A stretch of DNA of 64,000 nt, taken from the NCBI GenBank assembly GCA_030537195.1, contig JAUNOK010000012.1, positions 1-64,000 on the forward strand, written 5' to 3'. A model generated the notes under the pieces. The model had not been told where the DNA came from. It did no database searches and saw nothing but the letters and a program-made list of their open reading frames with translations. The translations under genes were made by a program, and so were the position numbers. This DNA is from Eubacteriales bacterium. Lineage in GTDB: Bacteria > Bacillota > Clostridia > Lachnospirales > Lachnospiraceae. This document shows positions 32,158 through 36,343 of the stretch, piece after piece (positions within the stretch are counted from its first letter, which is position 1; each line of letters opens with the position of its first letter).

Positions 32158-32170
32158 TAATCTCTATCTG

Positions 32171-32205
32171 TGGGAACGGACGCCTGCTCTTGGCGACTGT
32201 TCCCA
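32171..32205 (+). terminator. Terminator-like double hairpin after the Cys-rich gene
   Basis: Outer stem TGGGAAC/GTTCCCA (32171-32177, 32199-32205) encloses CGCC/GGCG; AT-rich sequence with a broken T tract follows on plus. Confidence 0.55.
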
Positions 32206-32221
32206 TGTACATAATTGTTTC

Positions 32222-32400
32222 TTTTGGACTTCCACATGCCTCCCCTCTGCTTCAACGTCCAATCCGCCTCTCTTTCCCGCTCCTTTTGGACTACCACATG
32301 CCTCCCCTCTGCTTCAACGTCCAATCCGCCTCTCTTGCTTACCCCTTTTGGACTTCCTCCGTGTATTCCACTACTTCAACGTCCAATCCAGCCACACTCC
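32222..32400. repeat. Three tandem copies of a 62-bp unit
   Basis: Units start at 32222, 32284 and 32346, each opening with TTTTGGACT. The first two are nearly identical over their length; the third is diverged in its middle. Each unit carries TTGGAC and GTCCAA as inverted ends of an internal ~39-bp segment, so each can fold. A degenerate single copy lies at 644-687. Confidence 0.85.
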
Positions 32401-32477
32401 ACAATTTCTTCCATTGCAAATATTTTAATTGCTAATCTCCCTACTATGCGTGTATAATTAATAAAATATATTATATT

Positions 32478-32695: not shown

Positions 32696-34216
32696 ATGAA
32701 TTTTAAAAAGAACAGGTCGAGATTCCTTCTGGTTTTCGCGGCCCTCACTCTTTTGTTCTCTTCTGTTCTTCTTACTTCATGTCAGGGAAAGAAGATTAAG
32801 AACACTGTATTTTCTGTAGATGATCTTGCAGGCAAGACTATTGGTGTTCAGTTGGGAACAACTGGTGATACTCTCGTAAGTGATTACGAAACTGACGGTT
32901 CTGGCACAACCGTATCAAGATACAACAAAGGTTCTGATGCTATACAGGCTTTAAAGCAGGGTAAAGCTGATGCTGTTGTTATTGATGAACAACCTGCCCT
33001 AGCATTTGTCAAAGCCAATCCAGACCTCACAATTCTTGAAGAAGAATTTGCAAATGAGGATTATGCCATCTGTGTTGCGAAAGGCAATTCTCTTACTGCT
33101 AAACTCAATGAGGCTATTGAAGTACTTATGGCAGACGGAACTATCCAGAAAGTTATTGATGATTATGTTGGTGATAATGCTACATTTTCAGGATACAAGT
33201 CACCAGACGGTGTAAGCCGTACTAATGGAACTCTTGTTATGGCTACAAATGCTTATTTCAAGCCATATGAATACTATGAAGGTGGTTCTATTATCGGTAT
33301 TGATGCTGATATAGCCCAGGCTATTGCTGATTATCTCGGCATGAACTTAAAGATTGAAGATATGGAATTCGACTCAATTATCACTGCTGTATCTTCTGGT
33401 AAAGCTGATTTCGGTATGGCTGGTATAACAGTTACTGACGAGCGTAAGAAAAATATCGATTTCACAACTACTTATACAACTTCTAAGCAGGTTATTATTG
33501 TCCGTGATGATAATTCATCTGCAACAGGCATGAGCTTTGCCGAGAAGTTCAAGACAGATTTCATCAAAGAAGCAAGATATACATACCTTCTTAAAGGTCT
33601 GTTAAACACTGTAATCATTGCATTCTTTGCAGCACTTATGGGTGTTGTTATCGGTTTCCTTATTGCAGTTGTACGTTCTAACCACGATAAAACTGGTCGT
33701 ATGAAGATTCTTAACTTCATATGTAATGTTTATCTTACTGTAATCAGAGGAACACCTACAATGGTTCAGCTCCTTATTATTTACTATGTAATATTTAGTT
33801 CTGTACAGATTGATAAGGTTATCGTTGCCATACTCGCATTTGGTATTAACTCAGGTGCTTATGTTGCTGAGATATTCCGTTCAGGTATCATGTCTATTGA
33901 TAATGGACAGTTCGAGGCTGCACGAAGCCTTGGTCTTTCTTATAAGACAACTATGATAAGTGTTATTCTTCCACAGGCATTCAAGAATGTTCTCCCAGCG
34001 CTTGCTAACGAGTTCATTGTTCTGTTAAAAGAGACATCTATCAGTGGTTACATCGGCCTTAACGACCTTACAAGAGGCGGCGATATTATCCGAAGCATAA
34101 CTTATGATCCAATGCTTCCACTTATTGGTGTTGCCATCATCTATCTTGTAATGGTTATGGGTCTTTCACAACTTGTTAAGAAACTTGAGAGGAGGTTAAG
34201 AAACAATGAGCGATAA
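32696..34216 (+). CDS. Amino acid ABC transporter: lipoprotein substrate-binding lobes (order swapped) fused to permease
   Basis: 506 residues. Lipoprotein signal with lipobox LTSC (Cys29). Residues about 36-163 look like lobe 2 of an SBP_bac_3 domain ([17 protein letters not shown] to [13 protein letters not shown]); about 175-278 look like lobe 1 ([59 protein letters not shown]). Lobe 1 normally comes first. About 300-506 is a His/Glu/Gln-type permease with the EAA-like loop [24 protein letters not shown]. The ATPase gene overlaps by 11 bases. Imports a polar amino acid or cystine by family; substrate unproven. AAAGGAG precedes the ATG. Confidence 0.88.
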
Positions 34217-34952
34217 TACTAACGAAATCATACTTGAAGTTAAAGATTTAAAGAAATCTTTTGGCGACCACGTTGTATTGGAATCAATCAATACAACTGT
34301 TCGCAAGGGAGAGGTTATTGCAATTATCGGACCATCTGGCTGCGGTAAATCAACATTTTTACGTTCGCTTAATCTTCTTGAAACTCCGACTGAAGGTCAT
34401 GTATTATTCCACAATCAGGATCTTACAGATAAAAGTGTAAATGTAGATGAATTAAGAGAAAAGATTGGAATGGTATTCCAGCATTTTAATCTGTTCCCTA
34501 ATATGACTATAAGAAGAAATATAACACTTGCCCCTACTAAGTTAGGACTTATGAGCAAGGAAGAAGCTGACAAGAAAGCTGATGAGCTTCTCGCAAGAGT
34601 CGGTCTTTCTGACAAAGCAGAGGCTTATCCTAATCAGTTAAGTGGTGGTCAGAAGCAGAGAGTTGCAATTGCAAGAGCTCTTGCAATGAATCCTGAGATA
34701 ATGCTTTTCGACGAACCAACATCAGCACTTGATCCTGAAATGGTTGGCGAAGTTCTTAACATAATGAAAGAACTTGCTGCATCAGGAATGACAATGATTG
34801 TCGTAACACACGAGATGGGATTTGCAAAAGAAGTTGCCAACAGATGCATGTTCTTCTACGATGGTGTCATCAATGAAGAGGGTTCACCTGAGGAGTTCTT
34901 TGGTAATCCTAAGAGTGAAAGATTGAAGGATTTCTTGTCGAAGGTTTTATAA
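34206..34952 (+). CDS. Amino acid ABC transporter ATP-binding protein
   Basis: 248 residues of the GlnQ/HisP type. Walker [10 protein letters not shown] (about 38-46), Q-loop [13 protein letters not shown], signature [16 protein letters not shown], Walker [17 protein letters not shown] and switch [12 protein letters not shown]. All key residues are intact. It overlaps the fused binding-protein/permease gene and completes the importer. The minimal system is two genes: one fused polypeptide plus this ATPase. Confidence 0.95.
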
Positions 34953-34961
34953 TTAGTACAA

Positions 34962-35189
34962 GGGTGGGCATTGAGATAGGTAGATGTTATACAAGACCTC
35001 ATGGATGCCTGCACCTAGTGTAAGTAAATGCCGTCATATACAATGTCTTTTAGCTGTGTAAAAATCAAACGCGCTTCGCTTGAACGAGATTTTTACACAG
35101 CACTTTTTGTATATAACGGCATTAACTTACACACGGTTCGGCATAAATCGGTCTTGCACAACATCTACCCATCTCAAAGCCACCACCCC
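34962..35189. repeat. Long nested palindrome P1
   Basis: About 100-bp arms: GGGTGG...GAGAT at the left, with ATCTC...CCACCC at the right; GGTAGATGTT/AACATCTACC and ACGGCATT/AATGCCGT blocks; inner perfect 14-bp stem GCTGTGTAAAAATC/GATTTTTACACAGC (35053-35066, 35088-35101). The 21-nt loop (35067-35087) is the exact reverse complement of the loop of P2. It starts 10 bases after the transporter stop codon. Confidence 0.8.
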
Positions 35190-35285
35190 ACTACTAAGCG
35201 GGCAAGCCTGCCACGGCAGGCGCGGGCGTCACACTTTCCCAGCCAACCCCCAGAATGCAATGCCGCAGGCGGGCATTCGTCCGGA
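35190..35285. repeat. GC-rich hairpins linking P1 and P2
   Basis: GCCTGCC/GGCAGGC around 35206-35221 and GAATGC/GCATTC around 35252-35278 give two compact stems. G+C is clearly higher than in neighbouring genes. No gene is seen. Confidence 0.5.
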
Positions 35286-35603
35286 GGCTGACCACTCGAA
35301 GGAGAAGAAGTCAGCCGTACAGAGCTGTGCCGGATAGGGGGTGACGGTGTCATCAGGTATATGCCCGAATATTCATATGTCGTGTGAAAGTTAATGCCGC
35401 AATCTGCTAAAGGTTGGGGCTTGTAATCTCGTTCAAGCGAAGCGCGTTTGATTACAAGCCGCATAAAAAACTCAGCAGATTGCGGCATTTAGTTTCACTA
35501 GACATAGGAATCCTGAGGGCAGATGCATGATGACACCGTCACCCCCTATCCGGCACAGCCTGTACGGCGTCCGGACTACTAAGCTTCCTTCGAGTAGTCA
35601 ACC
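35286..35603. repeat. Long nested palindrome P2 overlapping the 3' end of truA
   Basis: Arms of about 130 bp: outer GGCTGACCACTCGAAGG pairs with the truA tail; GTGCCGGATAGGGGGTGACG and GGTGTCATCA blocks match perfectly with the right arm; AATGCCGCAATCTGCT is perfect; inner 11-bp stem GGCTTGTAATC/GATTACAAGCC (35418-35428, 35450-35460). The 21-nt loop (35429-35449) contains GCGAAGC, the sequence known to make a very stable DNA mini-hairpin. Confidence 0.8.
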
Positions 35604-36328
35604 TTCAGAAGACATAGTCCCTTCGCCGGCGCAGTTGCACCTGCAAGGCTTCTGTTGCGTGCCTCTAAAAGCTCATACATATTCTCCGGTGTTCTCTTCC
35701 CCTGTCCTACTTCAAGAAGAGTACCACTTAATATTCTTACCATATACTGTAAGAATCCACTTCCATGATATGTCAGATTAAGAAATGAACCCTTTAAAGA
35801 TACATCTATTGAATAAATCTCACGGACTGTAGATTTCTTCATCTTAGGATTGCCACAGAACGATGCAAAATCATGCTCTCCAACAAGTATGTCTGCAGCC
35901 TTCTTCATGGCTTCAACATCTAATTTTCCTTCAATTATATTGACATATTTTCTGTTAAATACAGGCTTCTTATCCCCAACATAACATGTATAACAGTAAG
36001 TCTTACCCTGTGCATTATAACGGCTGTGGAATCTGTCAGAAGCAACACGGACTTCCTGTACACAGATATCCTCTGGAAGATATCTGTTCATATAATCGCA
36101 TATCTCGTCTTCCTTCATCCTTGTTTCCATATGTGCATTGGCAACCATTCCTTTTGCATGCACACCGGCATCTGTTCTTCCTGCACCTATAACCTCAACT
36201 TCAGTTCCTGTCATGGCAGAAAGCACTGATTCTAACTTGCCCTGAATTGTCATATCTGTAGTAGGCTGATGTTCCCATCCATAATATCTGGTTCCATCAT
36301 AAGTTATTATCATCTTATAATTCTTCAT
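35579..36328 (-). CDS. truA: tRNA pseudouridine(38-40) synthase TruA
   Basis: 249 residues from the ATG at 36328 (MKNYKMIITYDGTRYYGWEHQP), with GGAGATATC upstream; an ATG 12 bases earlier has no site. Catalytic Asp in GAGRTDAGVHAKGMVANAH (about 51-69), then RYNAQGKTYCYTCYVG and GSFLNLTYHGSGFLQYMVRILSGTLLEVG. Length is usual for TruA. Its last eight codons lie inside palindrome P2, whose other arm carries a degenerate copy of them. RecQ is encoded just upstream. Confidence 0.95.
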   Translation of the reverse strand: MKNYKMIITYDGTRYYGWEHQPTTDMTIQGKLESVLSAMTGTEVEVIGAGRTDAGVHAKGMVANAHMETRMKEDEICDYMNRYLPEDICVQEVRVASDRFHSRYNAQGKTYCYTCYVGDKKPVFNRKYVNIIEGKLDVEAMKKAADILVGEHDFASFCGNPKMKKSTVREIYSIDVSLKGSFLNLTYHGSGFLQYMVRILSGTLLEVGQGKRTPENMYELLEARNRSLAGATAPAKGLCLLKVDYSKEA

Positions 36329-36343
36329 TGATATCTCCATTTC

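Follow-up and report, generated by a model that had tools for sequence, protein, structure and literature searches.

The closest described relatives of the palindromes reported here are bacterial MITEs and foldback elements, attC sites, REP/RAYT systems and template-switch quasipalindromes. MITEs and foldback elements are non-coding, multicopy and intergenic, show empty sites and carry terminal inverted repeats, and our palindromes (hereafter rods) share all of this, the terminal repeats in Selenomonas. Unlike MITEs, the rods have a tip that is conserved across seemingly unrelated rods and stems that are variable but paired, and neither a clear target duplication nor an autonomous partner was found for them. 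attC sites recombine as a folded single strand and have sequence-poor stems, two points of likeness to the rods, which nevertheless conserve the tip and not the base and were not seen in cassette arrays. REP/RAYT systems too consist of dispersed palindromes, often downstream of genes, with an unpaired motif in the hairpin. Portions of PMC3733652 give REPs as 20–40 bp long with a GTAG or CGTC end, whereas the rods measure 200–500 nt with arms of about 100–250 nt and their host genome has no match to a Y1 transposase. Sections of two studies (PMC8604942, PMC8794818) describe template switching that homogenises arms, makes multi-base changes and inverts the spacer. The rods likewise show homogenised arms, compensated changes of several bases and inverted spacers; the quasipalindromes of those sections are local mutation events, whereas the rods make up a family that is scattered and shares a conserved tip.

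The window, that is, the whole stretch of 64,000 nucleotides analysed (contig JAUNOK010000012.1 of the Lachnospiraceae assembly GCA_030537195.1), holds two rods, P1 and P2, between the convergent genes of an ABC transporter ATPase and a tRNA pseudouridine synthase, the latter presumably truA (Table 1). The initial annotation had reported the same tip, reverse-complemented, in both palindromes, and the two copies indeed match exactly; at up to three mismatches they are the only matches to AAACGCGCTTCGCTTGAACGA in the window (mean of 100 shuffles, 0.00). It was also right that the closing stems differ yet pair, the P2 stem being 93% paired when taken over 14 nt, and that the outer arms differ but pair (81–93% across four arm pairs). 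P1 and P2 are 71% identical (35003–35135 against 35381–35513). Folded as single-stranded DNA, P1 (34967–35181) reaches −67.4 kcal/mol against a shuffle mean of −20.5 and P2 (35324–35559) −97.9 kcal/mol against −29.0, each beating 200 of 200 shuffles. Both match R1, a covariance model based on 40 of the 54 Lachnospira copies, the other 14 having been excluded as truncated, divergent or near-duplicate.

Table 1. Rods P1 and P2 and their neighbouring genes (window coordinates)
Feature	Position	Strand	Basis or detail
ABC transporter ATPase gene, upstream neighbour	34206–34952	+	PF00005; ends 14 nt before P1
Rod P1 (tip on + strand)	34967–35181	+	Inverted repeats, DNA fold, R1 match (35007–35148, +, 150.1 bits)
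P1 outermost arm pair	34967–34998/35150–35181		88% paired
P1 closing stem with tip	35053–35101	+	14 bp: 35053–35066/35088–35101, 14/14 paired
P1 tip	35067–35087	+	AAACGCGCTTCGCTTGAACGA: AAACGC, mini-hairpin, TTGAACGA; sequence match, conservation
Rod P2 (tip on − strand)	35277–35612	−	Inverted repeats, DNA fold of 35324–35559, R1 match (35368–35509, −, 145.8 bits)
P2 outermost arm pair	35277–35303/35586–35612		81% paired
P2 left outer arm	35277–35303	−	Inverted copy of the 3′ coding end of the tRNA pseudouridine synthase gene, 22/27 nt
P2 outer arm pair	35324–35366/35517–35559		93% paired
P2 outer arm pair	35371–35408/35474–35511		87% paired
P2 closing stem with tip	35418–35460	−	11 bp: 35418–35428/35450–35460, 11/11 paired
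P2 tip	35429–35449	−	Exact reverse complement of P1 tip
tRNA pseudouridine synthase gene, downstream neighbour	35579–36340	−	PF01416; 3′ end within P2 outer right arm

The match between the P2 left outer arm and the neighbouring gene end exceeds the best of 300 shuffles (18 of 27 nt). The comparison of strains for presence or absence that had been proposed at the outset found the pair site empty in the relative G017, where the flanking genes end about 30 nt apart and the rod is absent; the gene-end copy thus arrived with or after the rod, a single case that supports palindrome growth by the copying of a rod's own flank. At the same site, G001 and G016 carry P2 without the tip and P1 with other arms.

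The tip had been described as an apical loop of 21 nt. It is conserved as claimed but is not one open loop, as it consists of two unpaired flanks, AAACGC and TTGAACG, on either side of a 2-bp mini-hairpin. Among 40 aligned Lachnospira copies, the mini-hairpin pairs covary (G–C in 35, A–T in 4, unpaired in 1), and the variable part is the triloop, which reads TTC in 28 copies and takes six other forms in the remaining 12. Mean pairwise identity in Lachnospira is 0.92 for the tip, 0.97 for AAACGC and 0.95 for the right flank, compared with 0.61 for the stem below. As the flanks are kept while the triloop varies and the mini-hairpin covaries, what is conserved is an internal loop close to the apex. 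The appeal to GCGAAGC as an exceptionally stable DNA mini-hairpin found no support in this comparison, since no part of the tip is less conserved than its GAA triloop (TTC when the tip strand is read), in whose place the relative G034 has a hairpin of about 36 nt. The single rods of that genome (L144, L150, L154, L157, L159, L162 and L165) are about 500 nt long, have the ends AAACTTCC...GGAAGTTT and carry the extra hairpin within the tip. A CTTNACG motif 3′ of the tip was found in 24 of 61 Selenomonadaceae copies (1.5 when shuffled), 3 of 3 from Bacteroidales and 0 of 27 from Clostridia, and with no Clostridia instance the rods lack one common set of inner loops. The tip could also act as duplex DNA.

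The tip is not confined to the locus. A search of the host genome with the 18-nt tip core at up to three mismatches gave 17 matches (9 exact, 4 with one mismatch, 3 with two and 1 with three) against a single match for the reversed pattern. These tips make up 15 sites, with opposed pairs at two, that of the window (C38) and C30. Full rods account for most copies, whereas L034 and L036 have lost part of an arm. A crude ORF call places 7 sites between tandem, 6 between convergent and 2 between divergent genes, and 13 of the 15 are downstream of at least one gene. Within the genus, the tip was found in 5 of 22 genomes, the same five that match R1; within the family, R1 was found in 7 of 397 sampled genomes, the host included, with a search whose filters lose weak matches. 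At up to one mismatch, 4 of 398 sampled genomes of the phylum matched, namely the host and 3 of the 10 genomes of one other family (f39), and the reversed pattern gave no match in these 398. Exact copies of the 20-mer are present in at least 117 stretches from named genomes, with 120 exact tips among the matches listed. As labelled, these stretches are mostly from Selenomonadaceae (Selenomonas, Centipeda, Mitsuokella and some "Veillonellaceae") and Clostridia; two Bacteroidales MAGs and one Woykebacteria MAG also have the 20-mer, possibly through MAG contamination. The carriers are gut and mouth bacteria, and presence is sporadic among close relatives. In several rabbit-gut Clostridia MAGs (L232, L266, L314 and L323) the tip sits on another type of rod, with a second small hairpin beside it. 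A plasmid search returned E. eligens replicons and one match of 15% cover in Agathobacter, and a phage search with P1 gave no match; two exact 18-mer matches in viral contigs were without surrounding stems and were taken as chance.

Across this range the tip is accompanied by a stem. A strict stem within 8 nt of the tip was present in 76 of 119 distinct tips among the matches listed (those with enough flank, from the at least 117 stretches) but at only 2 of 300 random points; 13 of the 119 fell below the stem threshold, several of them with stems of 9–14 bp. Between groups, no relation of stems or inner loops was visible by eye. In the 40 Lachnospira copies, 96.2% of the cells were paired against 79.9% after shuffling, a share that is raised by the exclusion of truncated copies. 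Changes on both sides affected 31 of 40 pairs (19.0 when shuffled) and 264 cells (65.7 when shuffled), and none of 500 shuffles was as high, so that the stems covary across copies. Neither outcome named at the outset as a refutation, a loop without further copies or stems that fail to covary, was observed.

RNA helices usually pass through G–U pairs. In the covarying columns, we counted 12 G–U and 21 A–C among 1,237 cells when reading the tip strand, and 21 G–U and 12 A–C among 1,237 when reading the opposite strand, whereas a SAM riboswitch of the same family (30 loci of 53 matches) had 28 G–U and 6 A–C among 414 cells. The ratio of G–U to A–C differed from that of the riboswitch for the tip strand (Fisher test, P = 0.0002) and not significantly for the opposite strand (P = 0.10), and the share of G–U differed for both (P = 2e-9 and 2e-6), values that serve only as guides since the cells are not independent. 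Whole-arm totals agreed: the 54 Lachnospira copies had 148 G–U and 203 A–C, with mismatches of conserved inner loops included, and for 76 rods from other lineages the counts were 103 and 147. As G–U pairs are rare and do not outnumber A–C on the tip strand, unlike in the riboswitch, the pairing looks to be kept at the DNA level, and the leaning of the initial annotation toward DNA over RNA fits these counts. An Rfam scan of 17 chosen loci at the gathering score returned three matches, all of them riboswitches lying off the rods. The MIR856 hit in the window region scored 24.5 bits against a gathering score of 297 and was rejected as a chance rod-like match; the idea of a "skipping-rope" RNA was likewise dropped, as no rod matched any Rfam family.

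Comparison of orthologous sites revealed how the stems change. In 4 of 14 ortholog groups (L033, L037, L041 and L044), the rod was inverted relative to its flanks, L031/L058 having been left out of this count because their flank orientations disagree. In one inverted group, the flanks of G001 and G008 are 97.9 and 99.9% identical and the rods, lying in opposite orientations, are 86% identical over 221 nt, with seven compensated and seven one-sided pair changes. L048 and L049 differ once in the core, and the shell of the outer stem has changed on both sides as a compensated block; in 1 of 20 Selenomonas units the tip is flipped on an unchanged stem. One-sided and compensated changes numbered 8 and 0 in L057/L060, 9 and 0 in L078/L087, and 10 and 16 in L031/L053: in close copies the one-sided changes precede and the compensated changes come later. 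Rod inversions and compensated blocks between close relatives are marks of replication template switching, and both the arm homogenisation and the spacer inversion expected of template-switch palindromes were observed. A conserved loop on changing stems had been read as the sign of a folded molecule being kept; the pattern itself stands, but it is no proof of selected folding because template switching also homogenises arms and flips spacers.

Some orthologous sites are empty. All four close relatives compared lack L047 at its site and three of four lack L044, and the junctions there are clean. Short palindromic remnants at L042 (G001 and G008) and L046 (G001 and G016) indicate that some "empty" sites are losses through tip deletion and not pre-insertion states. 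The best match of L047 among the other loci compared was 80–81%; with no near-identical source for possibly recent insertions, movement may be old or may have involved horizontal transfer. In three Selenomonas genomes, AAATTRCAGTTTRT gave 53, 63 and 75 matches, compared with 7, 9 and 6 for the reversed pattern, and in this genus two rods lie opposed within a unit of about 569 bp that is bounded by terminal inverted repeats. Among 20 units chosen by spacing, lengths were 561–570 or 690–708 bp, all 20 had two tips and in 19 these were opposed, which is the layout of P1 and P2 in the window. In the units of about 700 bp (L280, L282, L375 and L382–L385), the segment that separates the rods holds a further palindromic repeat, CCTTCCCC...GGGGAAGG. 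TTTT or AAAA lies within 25 nt outside 18 of the 20 units, an uncontrolled count in which several units share one repeated flank. A common flank resembling GTAAAAAGTGCGTGGATAAATTCATAGAAGCCTCCATAAGGT was seen at L366, L367, L370, L371, L373, L375, L377, L378 and L381, and units with it may lie within, or be part of, a larger repeat. No shared ends were seen among the Lachnospira copies, and no clear target duplication was detected, the candidates of 0–3 bp differing between copies. Many dispersed non-coding copies and empty sites in relatives are features of MITEs, and the empty sites together with the terminal-repeat units of Selenomonas imply that the family is mobile or once was.

No partner gene emerged from our searches. 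The attC-like system first proposed found no backing: an integron integrase scored over the TIGR02249 cut-off in 0 of 18 genomes, and all 18, as well as 14 of 14 controls, matched below it. We take GCTTGAACGA, within the tip at 35067–35087, to resemble the L box of attC sites, a likeness that is probably due to chance. Among the listed terminal-repeat pairs of two Selenomonas genomes and the listed part of a third, no autonomous copy encoding a transposase was present. A 2.4-kb pair in G810 was rejected as a chance match inside coding DNA. At L386, an open frame of 436 aa beside this chance pair, with no tip nearby, looks by eye like an IS256/Mutator-type transposase. At L216 of Centipeda, two opposed tips are separated by 1.65 kb, but the gene that they enclose was judged by eye to be a common flavoprotein-type gene, and the candidate was discarded. 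Clustering of 668 ORFs from the at least 117 stretches revealed no candidate for a recurring neighbour by eye, and the 25 largest clusters look, from their first residues, like housekeeping, transport or signalling genes.

We consider it about an even chance (probability roughly 0.5) that P1 and P2 belong to a dispersed, non-coding, MITE-like family of palindromic DNA in which template switching homogenises the stems and recognition keeps the tip. Replication template switching would copy one arm onto the other and flip the part between, and this would be the main cause of pairing being kept at the DNA level; it may also extend the arms with host sequence, as the P2 copy of the neighbouring gene end suggests. 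Conservation of the tip would be due to its recognition by a protein, probably in a folded single strand or a cruciform, and that protein, not encoded in the element, would mobilise the rods or have mobilised them; both the recogniser and the route of movement are inferred. More tentatively, an enzyme common to several phyla might read the tip, AAACGC...TTGAACG, in folded single-stranded DNA and move or copy any rod that bears it, making the tip a portable address that unrelated stems carry in Clostridia, Selenomonadaceae and Bacteroidales, and perhaps also in candidate phyla.

The rods might instead be a plain selfish MITE, a possibility that we hold doubtful, in which an ordinary DDE transposase, now lost or unlinked, acted on duplex DNA, the stems pair only through template switching, and the tip has been kept by descent, ectopic conversion and transfer and not through recognition of a folded form. 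The terminal inverted repeats of Selenomonas, the fixed length near 569 bp and the many near-identical copies all fit this, as do the AAACTTCC-like ends that by eye are conserved in G034 and the likeness of the inner stem of L070 to that of L052, expected from ectopic conversion; that template switching homogenises arms and inverts spacers is known from the sections of PMC8604942 and PMC8794818 cited above. Descent alone should nevertheless blur a tip, whereas the identical 20-mer sits on stems and inner loops between which no relation can be seen in Clostridia, Selenomonadaceae and Bacteroidales; the Lachnospira rods, moreover, have no shared ends, and a transposase-length copy was not seen among the listed Selenomonas matches. 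A REP/RAYT- or IS200/IS605-type element dependent on an HUH Y1 transposase that acts either in cis or in trans, as the initial annotation had suggested, has become very improbable. Such enzymes recognise single-strand hairpins with a conserved motif, and Y1 genes flanked by long terminal repeats have been reported (both in portions of PMC3733652), but PF01797 (Y1_Tnp) had no match in five rod-bearing genomes (the host, G000, and G202, G106, G094 and G119) and, in a search confined to genomes from outside Selenomonas, occurred in 6 of the 11 that bear the element and in 9 of the 17 without it, and the tip was found at 0 of 30 Y1 loci (84,972 bases, up to five mismatches).

A structured non-coding RNA or another RNA-level element, in the form of an asymmetric rod with a conserved apical motif, has in its favour a very strong covariation that comes with conserved inner loops, and the position of 13 of 15 host sites behind a gene makes read-through transcription possible. 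We nevertheless judge this improbable, because G–U is rare where the riboswitch of the same family has it, with the same deficit in the 54 Lachnospira copies and the 76 rods elsewhere, because rod orientation flips against the flanking genes, and because no Rfam family reached its gathering score on the rods scanned. We give least credence to a domesticated bidirectional terminator or mRNA-end stabiliser selected at gene ends. The six convergent and seven tandem sites among the 15 agree with it, as do several copies directly behind terminator-like T-runs and the uncontrolled count of TTTT or AAAA near Selenomonas units, but a terminator is already present at many sites and needs neither a conserved 20-nt tip nor rods of up to 250 nt per arm, and the rods are sporadic among close relatives, with empty sites.

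The dispersed, MITE-like family with a recognised tip is the reading we prefer. The family is MITE-like by behaviour, and no known family accounts for its portable conserved tip. The open-licence PMC papers searched yielded no description of the rod element, and the rods are a real family of mobile-looking DNA palindromes that is apparently new to description. If the reading is true, common gut and oral bacteria harbour a widespread and apparently unnamed family of long palindromes in which nothing but the 20-nt hairpin tip is fixed, and this tip is a concrete bait for the protein that recognises it. The rods would then provide dozens of natural replicates of template switching maintaining long palindromes and flipping their tips, and would caution that covariation alone is no proof of a functional RNA.

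Elsewhere in the window, at 32160–32460, overlapping ORFs in several frames share peptide pieces (e.g., GLPHASPLLQRPIRLS), and this segment, behind an ORF of 348 aa, looks like a short tandem-type DNA repeat.
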